13,939 nt of DNA from Candidatus Omnitrophota bacterium. GTDB taxonomy: Bacteria; Omnitrophota; Gorgyraeia; Gygaellales; Profunditerraquicolaceae. Where the stretch lies: contig CAIVOB010000044.1 of assembly GCA_903907475.1 (NCBI GenBank), forward strand, positions 1 to 13,939, in the 5' to 3' direction. Under the pieces are notes generated by a model. The model was not told the DNA's origin. It searched no databases and saw only the letters and a program-made list of their open reading frames with translations. Shown here one piece after another: positions 1-13,939 of this stretch (the first letter of the stretch is position 1; every line of letters starts with the position of its first letter). The position numbers were made by a program, and so were the translations under genes.

Positions 1-306
1 GCGGATATTGATATTCTCGCCCACCCGGGTTTAATTACCGATGACGATACAAAATTAGCCAAAGCACGTAATATATTTTTAGAAATTACCAGCCGCAGAG
101 GACATAACGAAACTAATCAACATATCGTAAATCAGGCGAAAAAATTTGGCGCAAAATTAATTTTAAATAATGACAGCCATAGCCCGGAAGATATTATTAG
201 CCCGGAACAATTAATTAAAATCGGGCTGGATCTGGGGCTAACCCAAATTGAAATTGATAAAATTTATCAAAATACGAAAGATTTCTTAACCAGGAGGGAG
301 CGCTAA
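1..306 (+). CDS. PHP-domain phosphoesterase, C-terminal fragment
   Basis: This is the last 101 codons of a gene whose start lies before the window; it reads in frame from base 1 to TAA at 304-306. It looks like the C-terminal part of a PHP (polymerase and histidinol phosphatase) domain. An early DILAHPG segment and a later NNDSHS segment match the metal-binding His and Asp-x-His motifs that close the PHP barrel in stand-alone members. Family knowledge: such proteins use a multinuclear metal centre to hydrolyse phosphoesters; the substrate here cannot be told. Histidinol phosphatase is one possibility, but small PHP proteins have varied substrates. The stop codon shares one base with the start of the following lipoprotein gene, so the two are probably cotranscribed and translationally coupled. 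The family is fairly secure, the substrate unknown. Confidence 0.8.
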   Translation, partial: ADIDILAHPGLITDDDTKLAKARNIFLEITSRRGHNETNQHIVNQAKKFGAKLILNNDSHSPEDIISPEQLIKIGLDLGLTQIEIDKIYQNTKDFLTRRER

Positions 307-761
307 TGAAAATTTTTAAAAAGTTACTTTTCCTGTCTGCTATCGGCTACCTACTAACGACTGCTTTAATGGGTTGCGCCACGACTTCAAGTAGCAATCT
401 TCAATCTCAGGCGATTTTAAAATTTGCGGATGTCCCAATTCCAGTGGGCTTAAAACCGCTACCGCAAATTTCATATTCTTTTGAAAATGCCGGTGTGCGC
501 GTGGGAGTCTTAAAATATCAGGGCCGCGCTAACATCGATCAAATTATTAATTTCTATAAAGAACAAATGCCGATGTTTAATTGGAACCTGGTAAATATTA
601 TCGAGTATGGCCCGCGGCTCATGAATTTTGAACGCGATAATGAGACCTGTATTATCACTCTACAGATTGCCGGTTTCTGGAACGAGGATGTCTTGGTGAC
701 GCTATCTTTAGGCCCTAAATCCCAGGGATTAACCAAGAAGAATAAAGCACCGCTGAAGTAA
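306..761 (+). CDS. small outer-envelope lipoprotein of unknown function
   Basis: This is a 151-residue protein with a lipoprotein signal: basic start (MKIFKK), hydrophobic stretch and lipobox LMGC, so Cys24 would be lipidated. The mature part is about 128 residues and soluble, with a VPIPVGLKP segment, then a stretch like INFYKEQMPMFNWNLV followed by beta-rich sequence. This resembles small uncharacterised lipoproteins of diderm bacteria that carry a VPxPxG motif and an FYKxxMPxxGW-like motif; I cannot name the family with certainty. The start is well supported: AGGAGGGAG at 292-300 precedes the ATG, which overlaps the upstream stop as TAATG. It is probably the last gene of its operon, since a hairpin follows at 771-797. 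No function is proposed. Confidence 0.8.
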   Translation: MKIFKKLLFLSAIGYLLTTALMGCATTSSSNLQSQAILKFADVPIPVGLKPLPQISYSFENAGVRVGVLKYQGRANIDQIINFYKEQMPMFNWNLVNIIEYGPRLMNFERDNETCIITLQIAGFWNEDVLVTLSLGPKSQGLTKKNKAPLK

Positions 762-770
762 GTAAAGAAC

Positions 771-797
771 ATCCAAAAGTAGCTGACACTTTTGGAT
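771..797 (+). terminator. weak intrinsic terminator-like hairpin
   Basis: A perfect 10-bp inverted repeat, ATCCAAAAGT (771-780) and ACTTTTGGAT (788-797), is separated by a 7-base loop. It sits 10 bases after the lipoprotein stop and before the porin promoter. The stem has only three G-C pairs, and the following sequence is T-rich but has no clean U-tract directly after it, so termination is likely partial. Its position between two transcription units supports the reading. Confidence 0.5.
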
Positions 798-829
798 TTA
801 AAGCTTATTTTTGCGTAAATAAAAAACTC

Positions 830-857
830 TTGACAAACAAAAAGATCTAAGTAGAAT
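830..857 (+). promoter_or_regulatory. sigma-70-type promoter of the porin gene
   Basis: A perfect -35 hexamer TTGACA (830-835) and a -10 hexamer TAGAAT (852-857, five of six consensus bases) are separated by 16 bases. Transcription would begin near 864, giving a leader of about 95 bases before the porin ATG at 958. The promoter lies just after the terminator-like hairpin of the upstream unit, so the porin appears to be its own transcription unit. Confidence 0.7.
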
Positions 858-885
858 AGACATAAGTAACGAGTGAGAAATCATT

Positions 886-936
886 CTAGGCAATACAATT
901 ATTGGCCTAGTTAACTATAAAACCACAACAGTTAAC
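886..936 (+). promoter_or_regulatory. structured 5' leader of the porin mRNA
   Basis: Within the leader, CTAGGCAAT (886-894) can pair with ATTGGCCTAG (901-910), giving a 9-bp stem with one bulged G and a 6-base loop. Directly after it, GTTAACT (910-916) and AGTTAAC (930-936) form a second 7-bp inverted repeat that shares base 910 with the first stem, so the two structures abut or compete. Outer-membrane porin mRNAs in other bacteria often have structured leaders that set mRNA stability or bind small RNAs; no known riboswitch or motif is recognised here. Confidence 0.4.
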
Positions 937-957
937 AAAAAAAGGAGGAGTAAAAAA

Positions 958-2277
958 ATGGGTAAACGCTTGATTGCAATATTAGCGCTTGCTTTAGTAG
1001 TCGGCCTAACTTTTGGCGCCGCCTATGCAGAAGTGCAGAATGTGAAAGTTTCCGGAGATATCAATATTCTCGGAGTATTAAGAAATAATTTTGACCTTGC
1101 TAACCCAGCAACCAATCAGTCTCCCATATCAGCAACAAAAGAGAACGATAAAGCTGGATTTTTCGCTACTCAAACTCGGGTTAGAATTGATGCCGACTTG
1201 ACGGATAACGTTATGGCAACGGTAAGATTAATTAATGAAAGAAATTGGACAAGTGAAACAAATAGTAGCACGGATATTGATCTAGATTTAGCTTATGTTA
1301 CTTTAAAAGAATTTTTATATTCACCTTTAACCTTAACTCTTGGTCGTCAAGAACTAAGATTTGGTAACCAGATGATTATCGGAGCTAACAATACATACAA
1401 TTTCAATGCTGTAAATGGTTTACCTACTGATTTAAGTGAAAGAGCTTCATTTGACGCCTTGCGCGCCACCTTAAATTACGATCCACTGGTAATTGATCTT
1501 GTTTACTCAAAAATTGGTAATTCTAATGTTAATACTAGCAATGATGTTGATTTATTTGGCGTTAATGCTACCTATGATATTAACAAAAAAATCAATGTCC
1601 AAGGATACATTTGGGACAGAAAAGATAAATCAGCTAATGTAGTAATGGGTAAAAAAGATGATACTTACACCGTGGGTGGTTTAGTTACCATTACACCGGT
1701 TGAGAATTTAAAGACCTCTTTAGAAGGTGCTTGGCAATTTGGTAAAAATAGAATTGTCGCTGGTGATGTCACGAGCCGTAATGCATTTGCTCTACAAGCC
1801 AGAGCAGATTATGCTTTTACCAAAATGAAGATGATTCCTGGTTTTGGTGCTAGCTATACTTACTTATCTGGCGATGGTAAACAAGCCGCTTGGGATTCAA
1901 TGTATTATAATGAGAATCTCGGCAACATTGCTTACGCGATTCTTCCTTTTAGCAATATGCATGTAGCTAATTTAAGAGGCAGCGTCAAGCCGATGGAAGA
2001 TGTAACTTTGTCCGCTTTATATGGTTATTACAGGCTTGCTAATACAGTTAATAGTATAACCAGCAATAAAGTTGATAGCAATGGCTTTGCTTACCTCAAT
2101 ACTGTTTTAAATAAAAATAAAAATAACCTTGGACAAGAAGTTGATTTAACGGTTGCTTATGACTACACGGAAGATGTGCAGTTAGGTTTAACGATGGGTT
2201 GCTTTGCTCCCGGAGATGCTTTCCCGGATAGCCGTTTGGCGACTCAAGCTGTTGCATCAATGAAAGTAACATTCTAA
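958..2277 (+). CDS. outer-membrane beta-barrel porin, alginate-export family-like
   Basis: This is a 439-residue exported protein. The Sec signal peptide ends in AYA, with likely cleavage after Ala24. The mature part has alternating polar and hydrophobic strands separated by Asn/Asp-rich turns. The segment GRQELRFGNQMIIG (about residues 127-140) closely resembles a hallmark of alginate-export (AlgE-like) family porins, and the C-terminus ends in MKVTF, the terminal-Phe beta-signal used by the BAM machinery. The size suits a barrel of roughly 16-18 strands. A perfect AGGAGGAG (943-950) seven bases before ATG fixes the start. It has its own promoter and a strong terminator, so it is monocistronic and likely highly expressed. 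Codon use is richer in A/T third bases than in the downstream operon. Despite the family name, alginate transport is not implied; such porins are common general or substrate-specific channels in environmental diderms. Confidence 0.8.
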   Translation: MGKRLIAILALALVVGLTFGAAYAEVQNVKVSGDINILGVLRNNFDLANPATNQSPISATKENDKAGFFATQTRVRIDADLTDNVMATVRLINERNWTSETNSSTDIDLDLAYVTLKEFLYSPLTLTLGRQELRFGNQMIIGANNTYNFNAVNGLPTDLSERASFDALRATLNYDPLVIDLVYSKIGNSNVNTSNDVDLFGVNATYDINKKINVQGYIWDRKDKSANVVMGKKDDTYTVGGLVTITPVENLKTSLEGAWQFGKNRIVAGDVTSRNAFALQARADYAFTKMKMIPGFGASYTYLSGDGKQAAWDSMYYNENLGNIAYAILPFSNMHVANLRGSVKPMEDVTLSALYGYYRLANTVNSITSNKVDSNGFAYLNTVLNKNKNNLGQEVDLTVAYDYTEDVQLGLTMGCFAPGDAFPDSRLATQAVASMKVTF

Positions 2278-2298
2278 GAAATTGATCGAGCGACACTT

Positions 2299-2335
2299 AA
2301 ACCCTCGGAGGGTGAAAATCCTCCGAGGGTTTTTT
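2299..2335 (+). terminator. strong rho-independent terminator after the porin
   Basis: The stem is 13 bp: 2299-2311 pairs perfectly with 2320-2332, with core ACCCTCGGAGG and its complement. The loop is 8 bases (GTGAAAAT), and six consecutive T residues run from 2330 to 2335. It begins 21 bases after the porin stop. This is the clearest terminator in the window and separates the porin from the biosynthetic operon. Confidence 0.95.
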
Positions 2336-2366
2336 ACTATTGCGCTACTTAGCGCGTACCAATCTC

Positions 2367-3098
2367 ATGTCAAAAAACAAAAAAATTGCTTTAATTATTG
2401 GTGGAAGCAGAGGAATTGGTAAAGCCATTGCTTTACGCTTAGCCAAATCCGGATTTGATCTTTGGCTCACCTACCGCAACAATCACGTTGCCGCAGAGGC
2501 GACAAAGAAAGAAATTGAGCAACTGGGAAGCACTTGCACGCTGTTTTCTTTTGACGTTAGCAACTACGAAGCCACTAAAACCGCATTAGGCAAGGTTACC
2601 GATACCACTGCACCAGACGTTTTAGTCTTTAATGCCGGCGTGGCGCGGGATAACCTGATGGTCTGGATGACCAAAGAAGAGTGGGATACGGTTATTTCCA
2701 CAAATTTAAATGGTTTTTATAATATTATGCACGTTTTGCTTTTTCCAATGTTAAGGGAAAAACGCGGCCGGATTGTAATTATTTCCTCAACTTCCGGTCA
2801 AATTGGCCAAGCAGGACAAGTTAATTATTCCGCTTCCAAGGCCGGCTTAATTGGCGCCGCCAAGGCTTTAGCGCGCGAAGTCGGCAAAAAAAATATTTAC
2901 GTTAATGTCGTCTGTCCGGGAGTAATCGAAACCGAAATGACTGATAATTTACCCAAAGATAAAATTTTACCTTTAATTCCTTTAGGACGTTTCGGTAAAA
3001 CGGAAGATGTAGCGAGTGTGGTAAATTTTTTATGTTGCGAAGAAAATATGTATATCCATGGCCAAGTAATCGGCATTAACGGCGGCTTGGCAATTTAG
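2367..3098 (+). CDS. fabG: 3-oxoacyl-ACP reductase (FabG-type ketoreductase)
   Basis: This is a 243-residue short-chain dehydrogenase, the usual FabG length. It should reduce the 3-keto group of ACP-bound intermediates with NAD(P)H in the cytoplasm. Visible motifs: the Rossmann glycine motif GGSRGIGKAIA near the N-terminus, the NAG motif in FNAGVARDN, and a catalytic Ser141, Tyr154 and Lys158 in ISSTSG and NYSASKAG, with the PGVIETEMT segment after the active site. I chose the ATG at 2367; an in-frame TTG at 2340 would add nine residues but lies in the edge of the upstream terminator and has no family support. No good Shine-Dalgarno precedes either start. It is the first gene of the polyene-type operon, where it would act with the downstream ketosynthase, ACP and dehydratases (role like ApeQ of aryl-polyene clusters). 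It could alternatively serve housekeeping fatty-acid synthesis, which the context makes less likely. Confidence 0.92.
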   Translation: MSKNKKIALIIGGSRGIGKAIALRLAKSGFDLWLTYRNNHVAAEATKKEIEQLGSTCTLFSFDVSNYEATKTALGKVTDTTAPDVLVFNAGVARDNLMVWMTKEEWDTVISTNLNGFYNIMHVLLFPMLREKRGRIVIISSTSGQIGQAGQVNYSASKAGLIGAAKALAREVGKKNIYVNVVCPGVIETEMTDNLPKDKILPLIPLGRFGKTEDVASVVNFLCCEENMYIHGQVIGINGGLAI

Positions 3099-3108
3099 AT
3101 TTTTCTCC

Positions 3109-4611
3109 ATGAAAAAATATGATCAAATAGTTGTCGGAGGCGGGGTGAGCGGTTTAACCTTAAGCCTGCTTCTAGCCAAAAATGGCAAAAAAGTACTGCT
3201 CTTAGAAAAAGGCCCGCATTTGGGCGGTAGCCTCATACGTTTTTATAAAAAAAATATTCCTTTTGATACTGGTTTCCATTTTACGGCCGGATTTTCTCGC
3301 GGTGGAATTTTATCCGAGATGCTTAAAGTTTTAGGCATCCAAGATCAGATTAAGCCGATTTTTCTTTCCGCTCCGGGGAGCGGAGTTTTTGTCTTTGAAA
3401 AAGACAATTTAGTTTATGATATGCCTTCCGGGACCGAGAATTTTCGCTTAAAATTACATCAATATTTTCCTCAAGAAATCCAAGCGATCGATGCTTATTT
3501 TTTAAAAGTCAAAAAAGTCTACCAAGCGACGATTTCACTGGATCTGCGTAAAATTGGGCTACACGCGCAAGCGGTGGATGAAGATTATCTTAGCCTCCAG
3601 GAAGTTTTGGATGCTTTAACTACTAATGTACATCTTAAAGCATTACTTTCGGCATTTTGTGTTTGCTACGGGGCAAACCCGAAGGAAACATCATTCGCCA
3701 ATCATGCCCGCGTTGCCGGAGGCCTTTATGAGTCGGTGGCGCGCATTGAAAACGGCGGAGAGGCATTTATTCGGGCTTTTAACGAGCGCTTTAGCCAATC
3801 TAACATCGAGGTTTGTTGCAACACGACAATTAGTGAATGCGCCGAGATTAAAAATGACGCGGTGGGCAGATTTATTCTCAGTAATGGAGAGAGCGTCACG
3901 GCAACAGAGTGCACCTTTACGATTCATCCCCAGGAAGTTTTAAAAATTCTCCCCCGCCAATATTTCAGAAAGGCATTTTTAGAACGTGTCGCGGCTTTTG
4001 AAACATCTTATGGGTTTTTTTCGGTTTTTGGGATTGTGGAAAATGCTTGCCCTAACGAATTTGGCCCCAGCATTACTTCGCTTTTACCATCGACAAATTT
4101 AAATACTTTACTTGATCCAAACCAAAAAGAGGATACCGCTTTGGCAATTATCCGCAGCGTCGAAGCCGGAAAGGACGGCAAAAAATATTGCGTCGTCAAT
4201 GCTTTCCAACCGGAATTTTATTCCAATCTTAAACAGTGGGCAGATTCTTCAATCGGAAAGCGGCCGGCGGCATATAACGAGTACAAGGCGCGCCAGGCCC
4301 AAAGAATCACCGAGCGCTTTTCTAATTTTTTTCCACAATACCGTAATGATTTTAAGATCATCGACGCGGCATCAGTTTTAACCTTCCGGGATTATTTATT
4401 CTCTCCTGAAGGTAACGCTTACGGAATAAAGCAGAAAATGGGCCAATTTAATCTTTTTGGTAAATTGCCGCTGGTTAATATTTATGTTGCCGGCCAAAGC
4501 GCGGTTTTACCAGGTATTGTCGGAGCAATGTTATCATCTTTTATTGTCGCCCGAAATTTAATCGGAAAAGAAGAATTTAACCATTTTATTGCCGGAGAAC
4601 TAACAAATTGA
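3109..4611 (+). CDS. CrtI/phytoene-desaturase-like FAD-dependent oxidoreductase
   Basis: This is a 500-residue flavoprotein. The N-terminal dinucleotide-binding motif is VVGGGVSGLTLSLLLAKNG followed by LLLEK, whose acidic residue would hold the FAD ribose, and then LGGS. The C-terminal segment YVAGQSAVLPGIVGAMLSS matches the second FAD contact of the amine-oxidase/CrtI superfamily (phytoene desaturases, carotenoid isomerases, retinol saturases). These enzymes desaturate, saturate or isomerise long conjugated chains. Here it sits ten bases after the ketoreductase and overlaps the ketosynthase start by four bases, so a polyene or acyl chain is a likely substrate; that is inference. No carotenoid gene (phytoene synthase, cyclase) is nearby, which argues against ordinary carotenoid synthesis. 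The start ATG at 3109 lacks a visible Shine-Dalgarno and probably relies on coupling. Standard aryl-polyene clusters, as I know them, do not carry this gene. The exact reaction is unknown. Confidence 0.8.
   Translation: MKKYDQIVVGGGVSGLTLSLLLAKNGKKVLLLEKGPHLGGSLIRFYKKNIPFDTGFHFTAGFSRGGILSEMLKVLGIQDQIKPIFLSAPGSGVFVFEKDNLVYDMPSGTENFRLKLHQYFPQEIQAIDAYFLKVKKVYQATISLDLRKIGLHAQAVDEDYLSLQEVLDALTTNVHLKALLSAFCVCYGANPKETSFANHARVAGGLYESVARIENGGEAFIRAFNERFSQSNIEVCCNTTISECAEIKNDAVGRFILSNGESVTATECTFTIHPQEVLKILPRQYFRKAFLERVAAFETSYGFFSVFGIVENACPNEFGPSITSLLPSTNLNTLLDPNQKEDTALAIIRSVEAGKDGKKYCVVNAFQPEFYSNLKQWADSSIGKRPAAYNEYKARQAQRITERFSNFFPQYRNDFKIIDAASVLTFRDYLFSPEGNAYGIKQKMGQFNLFGKLPLVNIYVAGQSAVLPGIVGAMLSSFIVARNLIGKEEFNHFIAGELTN
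3367..3390 (+). repeat. terminator-like inverted repeat inside the CrtI-like gene
   Basis: TCCGCTCC (3367-3374) and GGAGCGGA (3377-3384) are perfect reverse complements; sterically the hairpin would be 7 bp with a 4-base loop. A G and five T residues follow (3386-3390). This resembles an intrinsic terminator but lies within the coding sequence, where ribosomes would normally disrupt it. Confidence 0.35.
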
Positions 4612-5828
4612 AAAGAGTCGCGATTACCGGAGCAGGCGTCATTACTCCTTTAGGCAATAATGTCGCCACACTTATTAACGGCCTAGAACAGGGAAAAAAC
4701 TCTACGGTTTATATTCCGGAGTGGGAAAAATATAAAGGATTACGCTCATTAGTCGGAGCACCGGCGGTTTTAGAAAATGAAAAATTAATTCCCCGGCAAA
4801 ATCGCCGCTCGATGGGCCGGCTCAGTATTTTTGCCGTCCAAGCGGCAGAGCAGGCACTCCGTGACGCTAATATCCCTCAAGACGCATTATCTGGCGGCCG
4901 GCTAGGCTGCGTCATCGGCTCGACCATGGGCAGCGCGGAAAGTATTGCCGAAGCTTTTGAAACGCTACTTCCGGATAATGATCTTTCTAAACTTACCTCA
5001 ACTAAATTTTTCCAATGCGTTTCGCATACCGCTGCCTTAAACGTCGGACAATGCCTAGGCATTACCGGAACGGTAATGTCCACTAATGCCGCTTGCGCTT
5101 CGGCACTACAAGCAATTGGCACCGGATACGACTTGATTCGCCTGGGAGAACAGGATATAATGCTCTGCGGGGGCGCGGAAGGTTTGCATCCCACAGTCGT
5201 CGGTTCTTTTGATGTCCTTTTTGCCACTTCCACTAAGTTTAACCAAAACCCAAAAGCTACTCCGCGGCCTTTTGATGCCCAGCGTGATGGGCTAGTTTGC
5301 GGTGAAGGCAGCGGAATTGTCGTCTTAGAAGATTATGACTGCGCTAAAAAAAGAGGCGCCAAAATTTACGCGGAAATTATCGGATTTAACAGTTTTGGTA
5401 ATGGCAGCCATGTGAGCGAATCCAGTCGCGAAGCGATTACAGCTTGTATCAAAGAAACTTTAAAAAGAGCGCAAGTGAGCCCTCAGGAGATTGATTACAT
5501 TAACGCGCATGCTACTGCCACAATTCAAGGGGACAAGGAAGAGGCCGCTGCACTGCGCGAAATTTTCGGAGCAAACGTTCCGGTAAGTAGCCTCAAAGGA
5601 AATCTTGGCCACACTTTAGGCGCATCCGGAGCAATCGAATTAATCGCCTCGTTGATGATGATGGAAAAAAGTATTATTTATCCGACTTTAAATTTAACCT
5701 CGCCCGATAAAGAGTGCCAGGGGATAAATCATATCATGCAACCGTTAAGAAAAAAAATAAACCTGCTGCTCAAAAATTGTTTTGCTTTTGGCGGAATCAA
5801 CGCCAGCTTAGTTTGTAAAAAAGAGTAA
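4608..5828 (+). CDS. beta-ketoacyl-ACP synthase, FabF/ApeO-like
   Basis: This 406-residue ketosynthase catalyses decarboxylative condensation of malonyl-ACP with the growing chain. The thiolase-fold active site is complete: nucleophile Cys163 in AACASAL, His301 in NAHATA, Lys330 and His335 in SLKGNLGHTLGASG. The VCGEGSGIVVLE segment typical of FabF-type enzymes is also present. It starts at TTG (4608), supported by the family-typical N-terminus MKRVAITGAGVITPLG and by GGAG at 4594-4597; the start overlaps the preceding TGA by four bases (TTGA). The rare start codon may lower its yield. The intact Cys shows it is a true condensing enzyme and not a chain-length factor; no partner chain-length factor is seen in the window. 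It could also be a stand-alone FabF, but the ACP, ligase and exporter context favours a dedicated polyene ketosynthase. Confidence 0.9.
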   Translation: MKRVAITGAGVITPLGNNVATLINGLEQGKNSTVYIPEWEKYKGLRSLVGAPAVLENEKLIPRQNRRSMGRLSIFAVQAAEQALRDANIPQDALSGGRLGCVIGSTMGSAESIAEAFETLLPDNDLSKLTSTKFFQCVSHTAALNVGQCLGITGTVMSTNAACASALQAIGTGYDLIRLGEQDIMLCGGAEGLHPTVVGSFDVLFATSTKFNQNPKATPRPFDAQRDGLVCGEGSGIVVLEDYDCAKKRGAKIYAEIIGFNSFGNGSHVSESSREAITACIKETLKRAQVSPQEIDYINAHATATIQGDKEEAAALREIFGANVPVSSLKGNLGHTLGASGAIELIASLMMMEKSIIYPTLNLTSPDKECQGINHIMQPLRKKINLLLKNCFAFGGINASLVCKKE

Positions 5829-5866
5829 TGGAAGTGAATTTTTAAGAATACCAATAGGAGGAACTA

Positions 5867-6124
5867 ATGACCGAACAAGATGTAATACGCCTGGTAAATG
5901 AAGTTTTCGTGGATTCCTTTGAAATTGAAAAATCCCGGCTCGTTCCGGAAGCCAATATTTTTATGGACCTAGGATTAGACAGCCTGGATATCGTGGATTT
6001 AGTGGTCGCGCTACAAAAGAAATTCGGCGTTACCATTCGTGACGATGAGAGAGTGCGCACCATCCGCACGCTCGGGGATCTGCAACAGTTTATTCTGACC
6101 TTAAAAAAAGAAATTGGAAAATAA
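5867..6124 (+). CDS. acyl carrier protein
   Basis: This is an 85-residue acidic-helical ACP. The phosphopantetheine site is Ser39 in DLGLDSLDIVDLV, the classic GxDS motif with a following Leu, and the helix-III region VTIRDDERVRTIRTLGDL is typical. It would carry starter and chain intermediates as thioesters. AGGAGGA at 5856-5862 lies four bases before the ATG, the best ribosome site in the operon and consistent with the high copy number such a carrier needs. It follows the ketosynthase by 38 bases, the longest gap in the operon, and its stop overlaps the acyltransferase start by one base (TAATG). The dedicated position indicates it serves this pathway and not general fatty-acid synthesis. 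Confidence 0.93.
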   Translation: MTEQDVIRLVNEVFVDSFEIEKSRLVPEANIFMDLGLDSLDIVDLVVALQKKFGVTIRDDERVRTIRTLGDLQQFILTLKKEIGK

Positions 6125-6873
6125 TGCGATTTTTACGCATCGCCTGGTTAAATTTTTGTTTTTACCCGTTCTTTATTATATTTTCTTTAATCGCATTTGT
6201 AAGTTTCGGCTGTTTGATTATTCTTTCCATACCTTTTTTATCCAAACGTAAAATCTTTAAATTCTTACGTTTAGCGATTCGTTGGTATGGGGCAGCGATT
6301 ATTCGTATTTTGCCTTGGCCATTAATTCGTTTAGAATATAAAAATTTCGGCCAAAATGACCCGTCCGGGCCGTATTTATTTATTTCTAATCACCGCTCCG
6401 CTTGTGATCCATTTTTAATGGGCGTTTTTCCTTATGAAATCGTGCAAGTAGTAAATATTTGGCCTTTTCGCTTGCCAGCGTTAGGAATAATTGCTAAAAT
6501 TGCCGGATACTTAAGTGTTAGAGAAATGCCTTATGAAGAATTTGCAAAAAAAACTCTTCAATTAATTGATGCTGGAGTTTCGCTGGCGGCATTTCCGGAA
6601 GGTACCCGCGCGCGGCATAAATCCGTAGGCCAGTTTCATAGCGCAATCTTCCGTACCGCGCTAGAGACGCACGCGGCGATTGTTCCGGTATGTATCACCG
6701 GCAATGAGCGCGTGCCACCAATTGGTTCGCCTTTTTTACGGCCGAGTTTAATTAAAATTCACCGCCTCCCGGCAATCACTTGGGAGGAATATAAAACTTT
6801 TAATGCCTTTAAGCTTAAAAATTATTGTCGCGCTATAATCGCCAAAGAAGTACTGCTCATGGACCAAACGTGA
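6124..6873 (+). CDS. PlsC-type 1-acylglycerol-phosphate acyltransferase-like
   Basis: This 249-residue membrane-associated acyltransferase has one or two N-terminal hydrophobic segments (about residues 8-40). It carries the two signature blocks of the PlsC/LPLAT family: NHRSACD, an H-x4-D catalytic motif (His90 and Asp95), and FPEGTR (157-162), the phosphate-binding block. Family members transfer an acyl chain from ACP or CoA to an alcohol, most often lysophosphatidate. Aryl-polyene clusters contain acyltransferases of this kind that are thought to attach the chain to a lipid or glycan anchor, and that role fits here. It overlaps the ACP gene by one base and the ligase start by one base (TGATG). 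The acceptor cannot be read from sequence. A housekeeping PlsC is possible but unlikely in this position. Confidence 0.88.
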   Translation: MRFLRIAWLNFCFYPFFIIFSLIAFVSFGCLIILSIPFLSKRKIFKFLRLAIRWYGAAIIRILPWPLIRLEYKNFGQNDPSGPYLFISNHRSACDPFLMGVFPYEIVQVVNIWPFRLPALGIIAKIAGYLSVREMPYEEFAKKTLQLIDAGVSLAAFPEGTRARHKSVGQFHSAIFRTALETHAAIVPVCITGNERVPPIGSPFLRPSLIKIHRLPAITWEEYKTFNAFKLKNYCRAIIAKEVLLMDQT

Positions 6874-8168
6874 TGAAAAACTTAGAGTTTTATAAAAATT
6901 TAGAGTTTGCGGCGGAAAAGAAAATAAAAACTGCACAAAACACCTTACTTAAAGAGCATTTACTATACTGCCAAAAAAACTCTCCTTATTATCGAAAGTA
7001 TTTTAAAAAAGAGGGTTTAGATATTAAAAAAATAAACTTGGGTAATTTAGCGACGCTTAAATTTACCTCTAAGGCAGACCTCGAAAAATACAATGATGAT
7101 TTTTTAGCTGTCAGCCCCCAAAAGATAGCGGAGATTGTTTTATCCAGCGGCACGACCGGTGAACCGACAAAAATAGCCTATAGCGCTGGAGATTTAAAAC
7201 GCCTGGCTTTTAACGAAGCACAATCGTTTCGCGCTTGCGGTTTTACGAATCAAGATATCGTGCTTTTAACCTGCACGATTGACCGCTGTTTTATCGCCGG
7301 ATTAGCGTATTATTCCGGTATTCGAGCCATCGGAGCAACCGCAATCCGCAATGGTTTAAATAGTTTAGAAAGCCATTTTGAACTCATTAAACGTTTACAA
7401 CCAACGGCCATTGTAGGCGTGCCCAGTTTTTTAAAGAAACTCGGGCTTTACTTAAATCAAAATAAGAAAAGCGCGAGCAAAAATAGTGTCAAAAAAATCG
7501 TCTGTATTGGTGAACCTTTGCGCGACCAAAATTTAAAATTTTTAAAAATCGGTCAGGATTTAGAAAAAATTTGGCAAGCTAAAGTTTATTCTACCTATTC
7601 CACCACTGAAATTGTTACTACCTTTTGTGAGTGCCGTGCTCAAAACGGGGGGCACCTGCATCCGGATTTAGCACTGGTCGAGATTGTTGATGACCACGGC
7701 AGAAACTTACCTGACGGTCAAAGTGGAGAGGTAGTGGTTACTCCGCTGAGAATTGAAGCGCTACCTTTAATACGTTTTAAAACCGGGGATATCAGTTTCT
7801 TAATTAACAAACCTTGCGCTTGTGGCAGAAAATCTTTAAGGCTCGGGCCAATTTTAGGCCGAAAAAAACAAATGATGAAAGTACAGGGGACAACTTTTTA
7901 TCCCCAAGCAATTTATTCCTGTTTAGAACAAATTAAAGGCATTAGTGATTATTATATTAGCGTTTCCAGCGCCGGATTACTTTCAGATAATCTAGAGATT
8001 TATGTCGCGCTCGAAAACCCCGCTTGCACAAAACTTGAGATTCAAGAAAAACTTCAAGCGCGTTTAAGAGTTAAACCAAAAATTTTTATTTGTGACGAGG
8101 AATTAATTAAAGAACAGGTCTTTACCAGCGGCTCCCGCAAGCCGGTGCGTTTTATTGATCGGAGATAA
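6873..8168 (+). CDS. PaaK-type AMP-forming acyl/aryl acid ligase
   Basis: This 431-residue adenylate-forming enzyme is similar to phenylacetate-CoA ligase. Motifs: the phosphate-binding loop LSSGTTGEPTK near residue 88, YSTTE in the A5 region, FKTGD in the A7 region, and the CACGR cysteine cluster characteristic of PaaK-like members, followed by a C-terminal lid domain that ends in a GSRKPVRF segment. Such enzymes activate a carboxylic acid as acyl-AMP and load it onto CoA or ACP. In aryl-polyene and flexirubin-type clusters an AMP ligase activates the aromatic starter, so that role is likely. The start is taken as ATG at 6873, overlapping the acyltransferase stop (TGATG); an in-frame TTG at 6825 would add 16 residues inside the upstream gene. 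Shine-Dalgarno support is weak. The substrate is not predictable; no aromatic ammonia-lyase is visible to supply a cinnamate. Confidence 0.87.
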   Translation: MKNLEFYKNLEFAAEKKIKTAQNTLLKEHLLYCQKNSPYYRKYFKKEGLDIKKINLGNLATLKFTSKADLEKYNDDFLAVSPQKIAEIVLSSGTTGEPTKIAYSAGDLKRLAFNEAQSFRACGFTNQDIVLLTCTIDRCFIAGLAYYSGIRAIGATAIRNGLNSLESHFELIKRLQPTAIVGVPSFLKKLGLYLNQNKKSASKNSVKKIVCIGEPLRDQNLKFLKIGQDLEKIWQAKVYSTYSTTEIVTTFCECRAQNGGHLHPDLALVEIVDDHGRNLPDGQSGEVVVTPLRIEALPLIRFKTGDISFLINKPCACGRKSLRLGPILGRKKQMMKVQGTTFYPQAIYSCLEQIKGISDYYISVSSAGLLSDNLEIYVALENPACTKLEIQEKLQARLRVKPKIFICDEELIKEQVFTSGSRKPVRFIDRR

Positions 8169-8171
8169 AAA

Positions 8172-9653
8172 GTGGCGAATTGTCAGACGATTGTGCCGAA
8201 TTTTGAATTTAGCCAACAGGAAATCAAAGCAGCACTAGAAAATAACCGCCTGCTTTCAATGGAGATGGAATTTTCTTTGCGTTGTAATTTTCATTGTCAA
8301 TATTGCTATATTCCCGATAAATCAAAATTTGAAAATGAATTAAGTTATGAAGAATTGCTCGACGCGGTATTACAGGCTAAAAACTTAGGAGTAAAAAAAA
8401 TTATTGTTTTAGGTGGTGAACCCATGGTTTATCCACAGGCCTTAAAAATGCTTAAATTTATCCGCGCGCAAAATTTAGATGTCGAAATGTTTACTAATGG
8501 TTTTGGGATTACCCCTGAAGTCGCCCAGCAACTCTTTAGTTTAGGAGTGCTGGTAGTTTTAAAAATGAACAGCCGCAAAGAAGATGTCCAGGACGCTTTG
8601 GCGGGGAAAAAAGGCGCCTATAAGATTATTCAGGATGCCTTTAATAATTTAAAACGCGCGGGATTTCCGACAAAAAATAAGCATTTCGGAGTAAGCACAA
8701 TTATCTGTCAGCAAAATTTTGATGAAATTATACCAATGTGGGAGTGGTTGCGCCAACAGGGAATCCAACCATATTTTGAAATTATTACCCCGCAAGGAAA
8801 AGGGCGGGAGAATGAATGGCTGCATGTTGATTCACAAAAGTTAAAAGAAACTTTTTTTAAGATCGCTAAAATTGATCAAGAGAAATTCGGAATTCACTGG
8901 GATCCTCAACCGCCACTCATTGGAATTAAATGCCTGCGGCATCAATTCTCCTGCCTCTTAAACTCTCAAGGTTACGTTTTGCCTTGCGTGGGAATTAATA
9001 TTCCTTTAGGTAATATCCGTGAGCATAAACTTGCTGACATTATTAAAGATAGTGAAGTCGTCCAAGATTTAAGAAATTACCGGACGCATATTAAGGGGCC
9101 TTGCCGGCAGTGCGTAAAAATTGAAAACTGTTATGGTTGCCGCGGGGCGGCATATCAAATTACCGGAGATTATCTGGCGTCTGACCCGTTGTGCTGGAAT
9201 AATACCGAACACCAAAGCCAAATTGTACATTTACCAGCCGCAGTAGGACGATTCATTCCGCAACAACCGCCGATGCAAATTATCGACACCCTCACTAGTA
9301 TCGGTGAACGCACGGCAAATATTAGCGTCACGATTTCTAACGATATGTTATTCGTCCGTGATGACGGCACGCTGGATGAAACCGCTTATCTAGAACTTAT
9401 CGCCCAAAGTATTGCCGCTCAAGCAGGATTTAAGCAGGTCGGAGTAGAGAATCAACCCATCGAGGGATTCTTATTAGGGGCAAAAAATTTAGAAATTTAC
9501 GCACCGGCGCATATCGGAGACACACTCACAATCTCTATTGTAAAATACGCGCGTTTCGGAGATTTTGGAATATTCAAAGGACAGATTTTTCGCAAAGAAG
9601 AGTTACTCGCAAAAGGAGAAGTAAAAGTTTGGGAGAATAAAAAGAAACCATGA
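8172..9653 (+). CDS. radical SAM/SPASM protein fused to an ApeP-like hotdog dehydratase domain
   Basis: This 493-residue protein has two parts. Residues about 25-345 form a radical SAM enzyme: CNFHCQYC (Cys38, Cys42, Cys45) binds the [4Fe-4S]-SAM cluster, and LGGEP follows. A full SPASM-type cysteine set sits at 254, 261, 272, 311, 314, 320, 323 and 341, able to hold auxiliary clusters. From about 353 the sequence becomes a hotdog domain: FIPQQPPMQIID resembles the LPHRPPMLLVD start of FabZ/ApeP proteins, and LELIAQSIAAQAG (from Leu407) matches the central helix, keeping the catalytic-type Glu408. The His that should lie about 14 residues earlier is missing; position 394 is Phe. GTG start with GGAGA at 8161-8165. 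The LolA-like start overlaps its stop by four bases (ATGA). The radical chemistry is unknown; dehydrogenation, cyclisation or another modification of an ACP-bound chain is inferred. The reading frame is open throughout, so the fusion is real in this assembly. Confidence 0.85.
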   Translation: MANCQTIVPNFEFSQQEIKAALENNRLLSMEMEFSLRCNFHCQYCYIPDKSKFENELSYEELLDAVLQAKNLGVKKIIVLGGEPMVYPQALKMLKFIRAQNLDVEMFTNGFGITPEVAQQLFSLGVLVVLKMNSRKEDVQDALAGKKGAYKIIQDAFNNLKRAGFPTKNKHFGVSTIICQQNFDEIIPMWEWLRQQGIQPYFEIITPQGKGRENEWLHVDSQKLKETFFKIAKIDQEKFGIHWDPQPPLIGIKCLRHQFSCLLNSQGYVLPCVGINIPLGNIREHKLADIIKDSEVVQDLRNYRTHIKGPCRQCVKIENCYGCRGAAYQITGDYLASDPLCWNNTEHQSQIVHLPAAVGRFIPQQPPMQIIDTLTSIGERTANISVTISNDMLFVRDDGTLDETAYLELIAQSIAAQAGFKQVGVENQPIEGFLLGAKNLEIYAPAHIGDTLTISIVKYARFGDFGIFKGQIFRKEELLAKGEVKVWENKKKP

Positions 9654-10285
9654 AAAAATTTATCTTACTATTATTTATTACTTTAAATATTACTCCACTT
9701 TATGCTGGCACTCCCGCTAAAGAAATTGATACAATTTTAGGGGCGCTGCAGGAAAAAATGGCTAAAGTATCCACGATTCAAACGGATTTTATCCAAGAAA
9801 AGAATCTGGCGCTTTTTAAAGCAAAGTTAATTTTAAAAGGGAAAATTTATATTCAAAAACCGGGAATGCTTGCCTGGCGAGTTTTTTCTCCCTTACGTTA
9901 TACTTTAATAATTAGTGGGAGCAACATCAGCCAGTGGGACGAAGATTCTAAAGCAGTACAATCGGTATCGATGGCCAGAAATCCTAGTTTTCAAGTTGCG
10001 ATTGATCAAATGCAAAATTGGTTTTCCGGTACCTATAAAGCGATGCAAGGGGATTATGATATTAACTTAATCAGCCAACATCCTTTAAAACTTGAATTTG
10101 TGCCCAAGGAAAAATCTCTGGCGCGTAATTTTATTCAACGCGTGGCGGTACTTTTTCAAACAGATGATCAATATATTAAAGAAATAAATATTTTGGAAAA
10201 AAGCGGAGACCAGACTTTACTAAAATTTATTAACCCCCAACTTAATCAAATAATTTCCCCGCAAGCCTGGGAGGTTAAAGCTTAA
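9650..10285 (+). CDS. LolA-like periplasmic lipid/lipoprotein carrier
   Basis: This is a 211-residue exported protein. The signal peptide is MKKFILLLFITLNITPLYA with probable cleavage after Ala19. The mature part shows the LolA/LolB-type layout: an N-terminal helix (IDTILGALQEKMAKVSTIQ), a TDFIQEK strand, then KGKIYIQKPGMLAWRV, typical of the LolA family, where a PGxxRW-like stretch is usual. Family knowledge: LolA carries lipoproteins through the periplasm in a hydrophobic cavity; LolA-like members are standard in aryl-polyene clusters and are thought to carry the lipid product. It lies directly before the MMPL exporter (TAATG overlap), so it probably receives the exporter's cargo. It is unlikely to be the housekeeping LolA because of this linkage. 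Confidence is high for the family, moderate for the cargo. Confidence 0.87.
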   Translation: MKKFILLLFITLNITPLYAGTPAKEIDTILGALQEKMAKVSTIQTDFIQEKNLALFKAKLILKGKIYIQKPGMLAWRVFSPLRYTLIISGSNISQWDEDSKAVQSVSMARNPSFQVAIDQMQNWFSGTYKAMQGDYDINLISQHPLKLEFVPKEKSLARNFIQRVAVLFQTDDQYIKEINILEKSGDQTLLKFINPQLNQIISPQAWEVKA

Positions 10286-12684
10286 TGGCAACTCGTATTT
10301 TAGTGCAAATAAATTCCTGCGTTAAAAGCAATAAAAAAATCATTACCGGATTATTGGGTTTAATAATTTTAGCTTCTTTAATTGGCTTAAAATTTATTAA
10401 ATATAATAACAACATTGAATTAATGCTGCCGACAGATAGCCAGGTACAGCAATCAATGCAATTTTTACGGGAATCTAATTTTTCGGATAAACTCGTGCTT
10501 TCCTTGAAACTTAACGATCAAAAACATACAACTGACGACCTAATTTTAGTGACCGATAAACTGGCAGACTCCCTAAAATCACCCTTAGTGAAACAAGTTA
10601 TAAATAATATCTCGAGCGTTAATTTTATGCCAGAAATGCTTTTTTTTTTACAGTATTCCCCGCAACTATTCGGCCCTGAAACTCTACTAAAAATTCAAAA
10701 TCAATTAAATCCTTTGGGAATAAAAGAGCGCTTAGGCTTTATCTACCGTCAAAGCCTGGCTCCGGGAAGCGCATTAATGCTGCCTTTTTTACGTGCTGAC
10801 CCGCTGAATCTGAGCTCCGCGATCTTAAGTAATATTCAAAAACTTTCTCAAGCTTCAGGATATGATGTCACAATAAATCGCGGCCACTTTGTAAGTAAGG
10901 ATGGACGGGCAACAATGATCATCGTAAAAACCGCAGTACTTTTAACCGAAGGGTTTGGCAGCCGAAAAATCGTTAGTTATTTACAAGAAAAATTACGCCT
11001 ACTTCCTGACTATGTAAGCGCCGATATTATCGCCGGGCATATGCATACCGTAAAAAACGAAGACCTTATCAAAAGAGACATCTTGCTCACTTCAATTATT
11101 GCCACTTTAGGGTTCTTACTTTTATTTTTACTAGTTTTTCGCGATTGGCGCGCAATGATTATTTTTTTAATGCCTTTCGTGGCCGTGCTAGTCTCCACTC
11201 ACGTGGGGTTTTTAATTTTTAAAAGCCTTTCTTATTTTGTGATTGGCTTAAGTTCGGTGATTGCCGGAATTACGATTGATTATGGAATTTATGTTTATAT
11301 GGCAGTACGTAAAGCTGGAAACAGCGTGGAAACTTTAAACAAAATTATTCAACCCGTAATTTTTGGAGCCTTAACCACAATTAGTGTTTTTGCGGTGTTT
11401 TTCTTTTCCAGTGTTAAAGGCTACCACCAGTTAGCATTTTTTTCTAATTTTACGATTATTCTCTGCCTAGGGTTTGCATTATTTATTCTGCCGCACTTTA
11501 TAAAAGAAGAGCCAAAAGCAAAGTTGACTCCGAACCTTAACTCGGAGTCACAAAAGAATTACTCCAGTATTTCAGACCGACTTTGGTTAACTACTTGGTG
11601 TATACTGCTTGTTATAATGTTCGGATTTGGAAGCCGGGTAAAATTCAATAATGACATCACGCAATTTGACGGCGCCGGCCTAAAAGTCGCTAAAAGCGAA
11701 GCAGCATTTCACGACACTTGGGGAGGCAAGGATTTACCGGCGGTATTTGTAGTTTCCGCTCCCACGCTCAAAGAGGCTTACGAACTTAACACCACAGTAT
11801 ATGCAGCGGCAACAAAAGCAATCGGTAAAGATAATTTTAATAGTCTGGCTTCAATCTGGCCGGGAACAAAAATTCGCCAAGCAAATTTAAACGCTTGGAA
11901 TAATTTCTGGAGCGCGGAAAAGAAAACTTCCTTGAAAAAACTATTATTAGAGGAGGGAAAGGCATTTAATTTCTCGGCAGAAGCTTTTACGCCATTTCTT
12001 AAACAACTCACGGCGCCATTAAATGTGACGCTCGAACCTCAAGGCCTAACTTTTTTTGAACAATTAAAAGAACAATTTATCTTAGAAAAAGATAACTACT
12101 ATCAAATTCTATCTTACTTCCCCGACCAAGAGGAATACATTGCCAAGCTTACTCAGATTAAAGCTACTTTTCCCGGAAGTTTCTTAGTTTCACGCAAAAA
12201 CTTTTCACAGCAAGTATCTAAAGCTTTGAGCAGTGAATTTATTTTTTTAGGATTTTTAGCACTTTTTTCTACTCTTGGCTTAACTTTCCTTTTATTAAAA
12301 AATTTGCGCTTAACCGCATTAGCCATGGTTCCGGTGGTCACGGCTTTAGCTTTAATTAGCGGAATAACATCTTTAGCGCGCCTAACGCTTAACATTCCCA
12401 GCGTAATTGCCGCAATGGTCGTAATCGGGATAGTCAGTGACTACGGAATGTTTATGGTGTATTATTGTAAATACAAGTATCAGACGGGAACGGTTACCGC
12501 CGTAACCCTGGCCGCAGTTACAACACTTATTGGAGCCGGGGTGCTCTTATTTGCTCAACATCCGGTATTATTTTCAATTGGCATCACCCTGGTATCCGGG
12601 GTTTTAGCAGGATATTTATCGAGTTTAATAATTATCCCGGCGTTTTATCGATTATGGAGATCCAAAGATGATCACACGCTTTAA
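10285..12684 (+). CDS. MMPL/RND-family lipid exporter
   Basis: This 799-residue inner-membrane transporter has the RND duplicated layout. TM1 is at about 20-38, a periplasmic domain runs to about 265, TM2-6 span about 268-408, TM7 is at about 433-450, a second periplasmic domain reaches about 645, and TM8-12 span about 650-792. The paired intramembrane motifs GITIDYGIYVY (Asp332) and GIVSDYGMFMVYY (Asp719) match the proton-relay positions of MMPL proteins. Family knowledge: MMPL exporters use the proton gradient to move lipids or polyketide lipids out of the inner membrane. A linker of about 25 residues between the halves (about 409-432) is cytoplasmic and Lys/Ser/Asn-rich. It overlaps LolA by one base and the downstream lipoprotein by 17 bases. 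GGGAGG at 10269-10274 provides the ribosome site. Export of the cluster product toward the outer membrane is the natural role. Confidence 0.92.
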   Translation: MATRILVQINSCVKSNKKIITGLLGLIILASLIGLKFIKYNNNIELMLPTDSQVQQSMQFLRESNFSDKLVLSLKLNDQKHTTDDLILVTDKLADSLKSPLVKQVINNISSVNFMPEMLFFLQYSPQLFGPETLLKIQNQLNPLGIKERLGFIYRQSLAPGSALMLPFLRADPLNLSSAILSNIQKLSQASGYDVTINRGHFVSKDGRATMIIVKTAVLLTEGFGSRKIVSYLQEKLRLLPDYVSADIIAGHMHTVKNEDLIKRDILLTSIIATLGFLLLFLLVFRDWRAMIIFLMPFVAVLVSTHVGFLIFKSLSYFVIGLSSVIAGITIDYGIYVYMAVRKAGNSVETLNKIIQPVIFGALTTISVFAVFFFSSVKGYHQLAFFSNFTIILCLGFALFILPHFIKEEPKAKLTPNLNSESQKNYSSISDRLWLTTWCILLVIMFGFGSRVKFNNDITQFDGAGLKVAKSEAAFHDTWGGKDLPAVFVVSAPTLKEAYELNTTVYAAATKAIGKDNFNSLASIWPGTKIRQANLNAWNNFWSAEKKTSLKKLLLEEGKAFNFSAEAFTPFLKQLTAPLNVTLEPQGLTFFEQLKEQFILEKDNYYQILSYFPDQEEYIAKLTQIKATFPGSFLVSRKNFSQQVSKALSSEFIFLGFLALFSTLGLTFLLLKNLRLTALAMVPVVTALALISGITSLARLTLNIPSVIAAMVVIGIVSDYGMFMVYYCKYKYQTGTVTAVTLAAVTTLIGAGVLLFAQHPVLFSIGITLVSGVLAGYLSSLIIIPAFYRLWRSKDDHTL
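11525..11550 (+). repeat. perfect inverted repeat in the exporter linker coding region
   Basis: TGACTCCGA (11525-11533) and TCGGAGTCA (11542-11550) are exact reverse complements, giving a 9-bp stem with an 8-base loop. It lies exactly in the codons for the non-conserved cytoplasmic linker between the two halves of the exporter. No U-tract follows, so it is not a terminator. Confidence 0.5.
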
Positions 12685-13339
12685 ATTAATATTTTTAGCG
12701 CTCATAATTTTATGTGGCTCCGGCTGCAGCTCGCTACCTTTTAAAAATATTGATTACGTATCTTTAGATGGCTTAAATCCTAACGCGCTGCGCCAAGAAT
12801 TCCAAGAACAACTAGCGCAAAATCTAGAAATAATAAATAGTATTGTTTTCCAATATAAATGGCAAAGCTTTTCAGCTTTAGGATACACGCAAATCGATTT
12901 AAAATCTGACACTTTTCGCGTCTCTTGCTTGAGCCCAGTAGGAATTAAATTATTTGAATTAACCGGAGACCGCCAAGAAGTTAAACCGATTTTTGTTTTA
13001 AAAGAATTACTCCAAAGAGGAGACCTGCCCCGGGCGGTCGGAGAGGATATTCGCAGGATTTATTTTGATTTTACGCCTCTGCCGGTGGCAAAAATAGAAT
13101 CCGAAAAATATAAAATCACCTTTACCCAACCAAGTGGAAAAGGAGAACTGCAATATGTCTTCGCCGGAAAAAACCATTGGTTGGTGGAAAAACATTACTT
13201 AGAAAAAAAACACAAACTTTGGAGTGTTTACTATTATGACTACGAACTCCATAACGGTAAACTTTACCCGACAAATTTAATTTTAAAACACCACCGTTTT
13301 GGCTATAATTTAATTATCCGTTTAAAAGAGGTGCCTTAA
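12668..13339 (+). CDS. LolB/DUF3261-like outer-membrane lipoprotein
   Basis: This 223-residue lipoprotein has a hydrophobic signal segment and the sequence CGSGCSS, placing the lipidated residue at Cys20. The lipobox is somewhat atypical, with Gly at -3. The mature part resembles LolB-type beta-rich proteins: strands around QSFSALGYTQIDLKSDTFRV, then SPVGIKLFELTGDR, and a C-terminal run of Tyr-rich strands. DUF3261 lipoproteins of this size are recurrent members of aryl-polyene clusters, next to the MMPL and LolA-like genes, and this gene has the same neighbourhood. It would receive the exported lipid from the LolA-like carrier and help insert it in the outer membrane, by analogy with LolB. 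The ATG lies 17 bases inside the exporter gene, with GGAGA at 12656-12660. Family assignment rests on context and fold-like pattern more than on strict motifs. Confidence 0.72.
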   Translation: MITRFKLIFLALIILCGSGCSSLPFKNIDYVSLDGLNPNALRQEFQEQLAQNLEIINSIVFQYKWQSFSALGYTQIDLKSDTFRVSCLSPVGIKLFELTGDRQEVKPIFVLKELLQRGDLPRAVGEDIRRIYFDFTPLPVAKIESEKYKITFTQPSGKGELQYVFAGKNHWLVEKHYLEKKHKLWSVYYYDYELHNGKLYPTNLILKHHRFGYNLIIRLKEVP

Positions 13340-13340
13340 G

Positions 13341-13712
13341 ATGAGCAAATTAAAACAAGAAATTAAATCCAGTCTTCAAGGAATCGAAGAAGTAAGCGCG
13401 CTAAAAAGCTGCGCGCGTTTTTTATTTCCTAAAAAATTTAGCGGTTTTAAGGGCCACTTCCCGAATAAACCGATTTTACCCGGAGTTTGTAAAATTCAAG
13501 CCGCTTTATTAGTTCTAGAAGCACGGAAACACAAAAACGTAAGATTGACCGAGATAATCTTAGCCAAGTTTTTTGCTCCAGTTACTTTTAACGAGGAACT
13601 CATTTTTAACTTAGAAGAAGAGCCGAAAAATGATACTGAATCTACCGTCACGGTTAAAGTAAGTTGCGGGAATAAAAAAATCGCGGAATTGAAATTAAGA
13701 GTTAATATCTAA
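13341..13712 (+). CDS. ApeI/FabZ-like 3-hydroxyacyl-ACP dehydratase, hotdog fold
   Basis: This is a 123-residue single hotdog domain. The motif FKGHFPNKPILPGVCKIQ is the FabZ/ApeI active-site block; His39 corresponds to the catalytic His of FabZ (GHFPxxPxxPGV). In FabZ a catalytic Glu lies 14 residues after that His; here that position is Gln53. It should dehydrate 3-hydroxyacyl-ACP to the enoyl form. Family knowledge: ApeI of aryl-polyene systems works as a heterodimer with the related ApeP. The only other hotdog dehydratase domain seen here is the C-terminus of the radical SAM fusion, which has the Glu but not the His. Starting one base after the lipoprotein stop, it has GAGGTG at 13328-13333 as ribosome site. 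It is shorter than FabZ (about 150) but normal for ApeI-like proteins. Confidence 0.85.
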   Translation: MSKLKQEIKSSLQGIEEVSALKSCARFLFPKKFSGFKGHFPNKPILPGVCKIQAALLVLEARKHKNVRLTEIILAKFFAPVTFNEELIFNLEEEPKNDTESTVTVKVSCGNKKIAELKLRVNI

Positions 13713-13723
13713 GGAGAGCACTC

Positions 13724-13939
13724 ATGCGCGAAAAAAATGAAAGTTATTTTGAAAAAATTCCCGGTGCCCCGAACCCCATAAGCTTTGAAATTAAAAGAAG
13801 GGTGAGTTTTAATGAAGTTGATATCATGGGAATTGTCTGGTACGGCCAGTATGCGATTTACTTCGAACAAGCGCAAACCGAACTTGGCAGGCGTTGCGGT
13901 TTATCGTTCCAAAATTTCTATTTAGCAAACCTGCGTGCC
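13724..13939 (+). CDS. 4HBT-family acyl thioesterase, N-terminal fragment
   Basis: The first 72 codons of a gene cut by the window end. The segment VSFNEVDIMGIVWYGQYAIYFEQA is split here as VSFNEVDIMGIVWYG and QYAIYFEQA; it carries the 4-hydroxybenzoyl-CoA/YbgC thioesterase signature DxxGIVxxxxY, with Asp33 as the expected catalytic acid, followed by ELGRRCGL. Members hydrolyse acyl- or aroyl-thioesters. Thioesterases with the same (N)EVDxMGIVW block are regular members of aryl-polyene clusters, where they may release or edit chains. AAGGAGAG at 13711-13718 precedes the ATG and overlaps the upstream stop. It shows that the operon extends past the window. Confidence 0.85.
   Translation, partial: MREKNESYFEKIPGAPNPISFEIKRRVSFNEVDIMGIVWYGQYAIYFEQAQTELGRRCGLSFQNFYLANLRA

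Follow-up and report, generated by a model that had tools for sequence, protein, structure and literature searches.

Does a radical enzyme that is fused to a dehydratase subunit act on the same acyl chain as the dehydratase? The question is raised by one gene of a Candidatus Omnitrophota bacterium (GenBank assembly GCA_903907475.1, contig CAIVOB010000044.1), of which we analyzed positions 1 to 13,939; this whole stretch of 13,939 nucleotides is called the window below. At 8172-9653 on the forward strand it carries a single open reading frame (ORF) of 493 residues, in which a radical S-adenosylmethionine (SAM)/SPASM enzyme (residues 1 to about 345) is followed by an ApeP-like hotdog domain (about 354-493). 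Our preferred answer, held with moderate confidence, is that the fusion serves a type II fatty-acid/polyketide-like pathway as a subunit with two parts, its radical half acting on the chain bound to the acyl carrier protein (ACP).

The two halves of the fusion and a predicted shared dehydratase site

Conservation was read from two protein searches. The hotdog half, with candidates limited to 0.55-1.75 times the length of the fusion and an E-value of 1e-3 or better, gave 156 matches, of which 120 were listed, and a second hotdog search from a distant member gave 109 proteins. Together they list 194 different proteins including the window's own, and after dropping 17 shorter than 450 amino acids there remain 177 listed proteins of at least 450 amino acids with the fusion architecture (radical SAM cysteines plus hotdog acid). 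Across 384 Omnitrophota genomes, matches reaching 1e-30 occur in 22: 11 have the full fusion (the window's genome included) and 11 have unfused relatives only.

The radical SAM domain matches PF04055 with 86.6 bits (cut-off 29.5). Its cluster ligands C38, C42 and C45 lie in the CX3CX2C motif CNFHCQYC (residues 38-45, positions 8283-8306) and are kept in 177 of 177 fusions. The SPASM region (residues 254-341, positions 8931-9194) matches PF13186 with 34.1 bits (cut-off 21.5) and holds cysteines for two auxiliary clusters; all eight are conserved, with a serine at 261 in one protein. The fold of this half is that of a SPASM enzyme. HAD-hydrolase matches inside the radical SAM domain were below cut-off and disregarded. 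Judged by ligand conservation, the radical SAM/SPASM enzyme of the N-terminal half is intact, with cluster loading and SAM cleavage predicted. The initial annotation had read one frame joining these three radical SAM cysteines, eight SPASM cysteines and a hotdog domain, an architecture that is borne out by the Pfam matches and by the 177 fusions.

The C-terminal domain (residues 354-493, positions 9231-9650) has a hotdog fold, a point on which the initial annotation had staked its interpretation beforehand. The best sequence match in the PDB is 6qsr_B, the ApeP chain of the ApeI:ApeP complex (2.1e-8 against 0.23 for the next match), and a profile search also places the domain closer to ApeP than to FabZ (3.6e-14 against 1.2e-4). 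In FabZ a catalytic histidine and a catalytic glutamate make up the active site; the histidine stands 14 residues ahead of the glutamate in three stand-alone FabZ proteins from close unfused clusters. At the place of the FabZ histidine the fusion has F394, with phenylalanine in 174 of the 177 proteins, leucine in two and serine in one, whereas E408 and Q412 are invariant (177/177). The alignment with 6qsr_B has the same arrangement, with a phenylalanine 14 residues ahead of the glutamate. The resemblance to ApeP that had been suggested at the outset thus holds. A plain FabZ fusion was ruled out: the domain lacks the catalytic histidine, and in sequence it matches ApeP far better.

The counterpart appears to be encoded near the end of the window. 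The ApeI-like hotdog protein at 13341-13712 (forward strand), already proposed as a likely partner, has H39 and carries Q53 at the place of the FabZ glutamate. Together with 11 orthologues, the histidine is present in 12 of 12 and an acid at the glutamate place in none of 12 (glutamine in six, leucine in four, methionine and threonine in one each). Its structure model (predicted local distance difference test, pLDDT, 93.9) aligns to 6qsr_A with a target template modelling (TM) score of 0.86. The gene is present in all 11 fused Omnitrophota genomes, on a separate contig from the fusion in G135, G262 and G308. The close unfused clusters hold one recognised FabZ each, with both histidine and glutamate (3/3). 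Since each hotdog holds the residue that the other one lacks, one shared dehydratase site is predicted from sequence and fold: H39 of the ApeI-like protein and E408 of the fusion would come together in a heterodimer.

Several scores weigh against this assignment. PF22817 reaches 16.0 bits on the fusion against a gathering cut-off of 27, and it is over cut-off in none of the 384 Omnitrophota genomes, the model being too insensitive for this hotdog domain; protein database labels assign PF22817.3 to protein P0002 despite the sub-cut-off score in the Pfam copy used here. Because the gathering score is missed with that copy, the hotdog half is described by its residues, as a domain that works like ApeP, rather than as a formal Pfam member. 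The ApeI-like protein misses the PF22818 cut-off (23.8 bits against 28.5), eight FabZ chains outrank 6qsr_A by E-value in the fold search with its model, and four FabZ entries outscore 6qsr_A in sequence. The absence of the catalytic histidine would also suit a non-catalytic hotdog half that serves as a docking or scaffold domain bringing the radical domain to ACP. We regard such a role as quite improbable: E408 and Q412 are invariant, every fused genome has the ApeI-like gene and its 12 aligned products are histidine-only. An invariant E408 with a histidine-only partner is the pattern expected of a shared site, and therefore favours it over a scaffold.

Occurrence and origin of the fusion

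The initial annotation had considered that homologues might always be split, with an assembly error joining them here. This is not so. The same architecture is found in the 177 listed proteins, which come from several sources, and in 11 of 384 genomes, and 16 of 16 translated fused loci are free of internal stops; genome G262 was flagged with one TAA, yet its open frame runs over 489 amino acids without an internal stop. An assembly or frameshift artefact joining two genes is ruled out on these grounds, and we give it practically no weight.

The fusion is also wider than first noted, forming one clade in metagenome-assembled genomes (MAGs) of several phyla. Named carriers are MAGs of Omnitrophota/Omnitrophica, Ratteibacteria, Hydrogenedentes, Nitrospirota, Desulfuromonadales and Geobacteraceae, with one labelled plainly 'bacterium'. 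A genome scan returned five named Omnitrophota contigs carrying the fusion at 68-87% identity, and two weak archaeal loci as well. In the plasmid collection no place covered 80% of the query. Within the window's genus the fusion is patchy, being present only in G000 (the window's genome) and G135 of 18 listed genomes, a pattern suggestive of cluster loss or transfer.

A close unfused form of the radical SAM protein (345-369 amino acids) occurs in three Omnitrophota genomes, in each directly beside a FlxY-like ligase. Also encoded in their clusters are two B12-radical SAM proteins, FabG, a CrtI-like protein, ACP and beta-ketoacyl-ACP synthases (KS), as well as a second radical SAM protein (SPASM by Pfam in locus L044). 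The other eight unfused-only genomes have more distant radical SAM proteins, and the loci fetched from them are of other make-up. A more distant radical SAM family stands directly before a weakly FlxY-like ligase in L046 (9831-10949), L049 (5193-6299) and L050 (9670-10758); these loci are of another kind, with further radical SAM genes. A search for relatives of the unfused form gave 2036 proteins, and the 120 listed include Brocadia, Brocadiales and Brocadiaceae MAGs (48-51% identity) besides Nitrospirota, Planctomycetota and Kiritimatiellia. No copy of the Brocadia relative was found among viral contigs.

Maximum-likelihood tree building groups the 15 fused representatives in one clade (100/100), so that a single fusion event is enough, and places the anammox relatives among the unfused rows. 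The tree comprises 15 of 176 fused and 28 of 118 unfused proteins, two loci and four distant rows. It leaves out four long- or suspicious-branch rows of an earlier 53-row run, which likewise gave one fused clade. P0222 and P0242 come out as sister to the fused clade, with weak support (87/75). Across the radical half, 62 positions, all 11 cluster cysteines among them, are at least 97% conserved in both the 176 fused and the 118 unfused proteins, and consequently the two forms probably catalyse the same reaction. The pairing of radical SAM enzyme and ligase seems older than the fusion, given the tree and the ligase beside both the fused and the close unfused forms.

The surrounding cluster and the substrate of the radical half

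The genes around the fusion, all on the forward strand, resemble those of an acyl assembly and export cluster. Upstream lie a FabG-type 3-oxoacyl-ACP reductase (2340-3098), a CrtI/CrtD-like oxidoreductase of the 'phytoene desaturase' type dependent on flavin adenine dinucleotide (FAD; 3109-4611, scoring under the cut-offs that NCBIfam sets for its named carotenoid models), KS1 with the motif NAACAS (4608-5828), an ACP with the motif GLDSLD (5867-6124; PF00550 4.9e-11), a PlsC-like acyltransferase (6124-6873; PF01553 2.2e-17) and, directly before the fusion, a PaaK/FlxY-like adenosine monophosphate (AMP) ligase of uncertain start (6825-8168; NF053551 475 bits, cut-off 520). Downstream follow a LolA-like periplasmic carrier (9650-10285; PF03548 1.7e-18, NF053544 115 bits against 125), an MMPL/HpnN-like RND exporter (10285-12684; TIGR03480 1.6e-22 and PF03176 0.15, both below cut-off), a DUF3261/LolB-like lipoprotein (12668-13339; PF11659 26.4 bits, cut-off 22.3) and, after the ApeI-like gene, the start of a 4HBT-type thioesterase gene (13724-13939), a weak match that breaks off at the window end and has longer copies in relatives.

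Gene order was compared across the fused loci with enough DNA, all of them from Omnitrophota, the sole phylum in which fused loci were read. The common order is FabG, CrtI-like, KS, ACP, acyltransferase, FlxY-like ligase and fusion, continuing with LolA-like, MMPL, DUF3261, ApeI-like, thioesterase and a second KS. The FlxY-like ligase stands directly upstream of the fusion in 16 of 16 loci including the window (15 distinct, as L006 and L011 have the same sequence). Departures are extra unlabelled ORFs in L036 and the lack of a recognised thioesterase in L005 and L066. The alginate-export-like porin upstream (958-2277 in the window) is represented by two separate ORFs in L004 (2622-3994). KS-like proteins without the usual active-site cysteine are encoded in L044 (4060-5091 and 7368-8357, by alignment) and L067 (6647-7681, by inspection).

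Further downstream, relatives of the window cluster have two B12-binding radical SAM genes. The second encodes TIGR04072, 'rSAM_ladder_B12'; against a cut-off of 360 it scores 626 bits in L005 and 631 in the genome of the window, where it is located on a separate contig (C77:1884-3272). Region 628-3272 of C77 (L062) contains both B12-binding genes, with a short conserved gene of unknown function ahead of them. By analogy with the relatives, C77 probably continues the window's cluster. In L067 this downstream part also includes genes for a GT2-DUF2062 protein and a lipid A-type acyltransferase, together with another ACP and KS genes. The CX3CX2C motif is kept in 18 of 18 B12 proteins looked at. 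TIGR04072 shares a contig with the fusion in G114, G175, G176, G177, G187 and G309, and a relative is found in loci L004, L005 and L008.

TIGR04072 is over cut-off in 14 of the 384 Omnitrophota genomes, namely 10 of the 11 fused, all three close unfused and one other. It occurs together with the fusion or its close unfused form in 13 of the 15 genomes having either (Fisher p 3.8e-22, with the 384 genomes uncorrected for kinship and the compared genes mostly in one cluster). The close group (11 fused and three unfused) was set by hand. G143 is not in it; its TIGR04072 match falls below the cut-off, and no radical SAM match at 1e-30 is listed for it. Two exceptions to the co-occurrence are G111, where the contig ends inside the first B12 gene, and G303, with its TIGR04072 gene on a 5.7-kb contig. 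The aryl polyene (APE) frame in which the fusion had initially been placed is kept in part: APE-type genes are present, but the frame is too narrow given TIGR04072 in the relatives and in the own genome, and among the window's genes none was recognised that would form an aryl starter. By gene content, the Omnitrophota clusters with the fusion are part APE-type (export and dehydration genes) and part ladderane-type (radical genes).

The following sequence of events would be consistent with these data. The ApeP-type half is predicted to pair with the ApeI-like protein, H39 and E408 dehydrating 3-hydroxyacyl-ACP to introduce a double bond. The N-terminal half is predicted to be an active radical SAM/SPASM enzyme; conservation and co-occurrence link its family to FlxY-like ligases and TIGR04072. 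It would most likely remove one hydrogen from the unsaturated, ACP-bound chain, passing an electron to the auxiliary clusters. The outcome might be an oxygen-independent net oxidation, i.e. desaturation or ring closure. The fusion would keep the radical site near the place where ACP docks for dehydration. The LolA-, MMPL- and LolB-like proteins may then move the product to the outer membrane, as in the APE pathway.

We favour oxidation of the ACP-bound chain because the radical half is fused to an enzyme that handles ACP-bound chains itself. A number of observations pull the other way. The radical half is conserved without the hotdog and the unfused clusters have a complete FabZ, so that the fusion is not essential for the radical reaction. 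The FlxY-like ligase, as a steady and older neighbour of the radical half, could fit a starter acid nearly as well: the radical half would make or modify the acid for the ligase, and the ApeP fusion would set the stoichiometry or bring the starter to the synthase. Direct adjacency of the ligase in the 16 fused and three close unfused loci, together with the apparent age of the pairing, makes this a serious alternative, though a clearly less likely one, as there is no evident reason to join a starter enzyme to the dehydratase of the growing chain. The best structural matches of the radical half include SuiB, SkfB and AnSME, all acting on peptides, and the domain might accordingly work outside the chain, on a peptide or cofactor, with the fusion as incidental co-expression. 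This we consider unlikely: no precursor-peptide gene was recognised among the window's ORFs of at least 60 amino acids, and the clusters of both the fused and the close unfused forms abound in genes for KS, ACP and dehydratases.

Experiments on genes of the anammox clusters also temper the chain-level reading. According to Javidpour 2016 (PMC4790861), Kuenenia operons 3-8 and 10 re-made in E. coli gave no new fatty acid products, and Kuste3342 and Kuste3343 were not detected. On the favourable side, action of the radical SAM enzymes of anammox clusters on the chain was suggested, purely as a proposal, by Rattray 2009 (PMC2649909); radical SAM action on ACP-bound chains is likewise a hypothesis in a 2023 methyltransferase paper (PMC9821293).

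A bolder extension of the preferred reading places the fusion at the radical heart of ladderane-like machinery in bacteria other than anammox ones: the dehydratase half would build an ACP-bound polyene, and the radical half, helped by both B12-radical SAM proteins and the CrtI-like oxidase, would close it into rings. We rate this as improbable. If true, Omnitrophota, Nitrospirota and Geobacteraceae would make cyclised polyene lipids of an unseen kind, and the anammox radical SAM genes would likewise act on ACP-bound chains. How ladderane rings form is still an unsolved question, and no role is known for the ladderane-type clusters of non-anammox phyla (PMC2649909, PMC4790861, PMC9821293, PMC9902471). 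A natural radical SAM-dehydratase fusion from such clusters suggests, without proof, that acyl-ACP assembly is where this radical enzyme works; it also offers a single target for testing the substrate.

Comparison with aryl polyene, flexirubin and ladderane-type clusters

The closest known system for the hotdog half is ApeI:ApeP from Xenorhabdus doucetiae (6QSR). The C-terminal half of the fusion matches chain B and the 13341-13712 protein chain A; as in the known complex, one subunit has the glutamate without the histidine and the other has the histidine, and LolA-, MMPL- and DUF3261-like genes are nearby. In contrast to ApeI:ApeP, the ApeP-like part sits behind a radical SAM/SPASM enzyme, the Pfam cut-offs are missed, and the ApeI-like partner has Gln, Leu, Met or Thr where 6qsr_A has Asp. 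With aryl polyene clusters in general the window shares KS, ketoreductase, ACP, LolA and DUF3261 genes, each over its Pfam cut-off. The ApeI-like, ApeP-like and MMPL proteins are all below theirs, although the dehydratase residues and folds fit, and for loading of a starter a FlxY-like ligase is present but below cut-off. Flexirubin clusters come into view through the ligase, reductase and LolA genes, with FlxY, FlxB and LolA2 as best NCBIfam matches, all below the curated cut-offs.

By the published gene descriptions, the type II fatty acid synthesis (FASII) clusters of Kuenenia and Desulfotalea contain radical SAM, phytoene-dehydrogenase-like, phenylacetyl-CoA-ligase-like and membrane-protein genes, with similar clusters in Geobacter and Pelobacter (Rattray 2009, PMC2649909); kuste3335-3352 comprises genes of the same kinds (Javidpour 2016, PMC4790861). 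The window resembles these anammox 'ladderane' and Desulfotalea clusters in having a radical SAM gene (in those clusters Kuste3342/3343 and DP1853/DP1855) near a phenylacetyl-CoA-ligase-like gene, and shares with them a phytoene-desaturase-like gene, KS, FabG, ACP and a membrane protein. Family members from Brocadia MAGs are 49% identical to the unfused Omnitrophota form. Its CrtI/CrtD-like oxidase is of the same kind as Kuste3336/3607. The cysteine-less KS-like proteins of L044 and L067 are reminiscent of the non-canonical FabF proteins tabulated for anammox bacteria in PMC2649909. A difference on the published descriptions is that in the window the radical SAM gene is fused to a dehydratase subunit. 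No radical SAM-dehydratase fusion is described in the literature searched by full text, a coverage that takes in few subscription journals. Ladderane-type clusters of unknown function have been reported from Omnitrophota and other phyla in the Cariaco paper (PMC9902471).

The TIGR04072 clusters are linked to the fusion by a TIGR04072 protein that exceeds the cut-off in 10 of the 11 fused genomes, among them the window's own, where it lies on C77. TIGR04072 itself is a different, B12-binding radical SAM protein, alongside which the fusion stands as an additional gene in these clusters.
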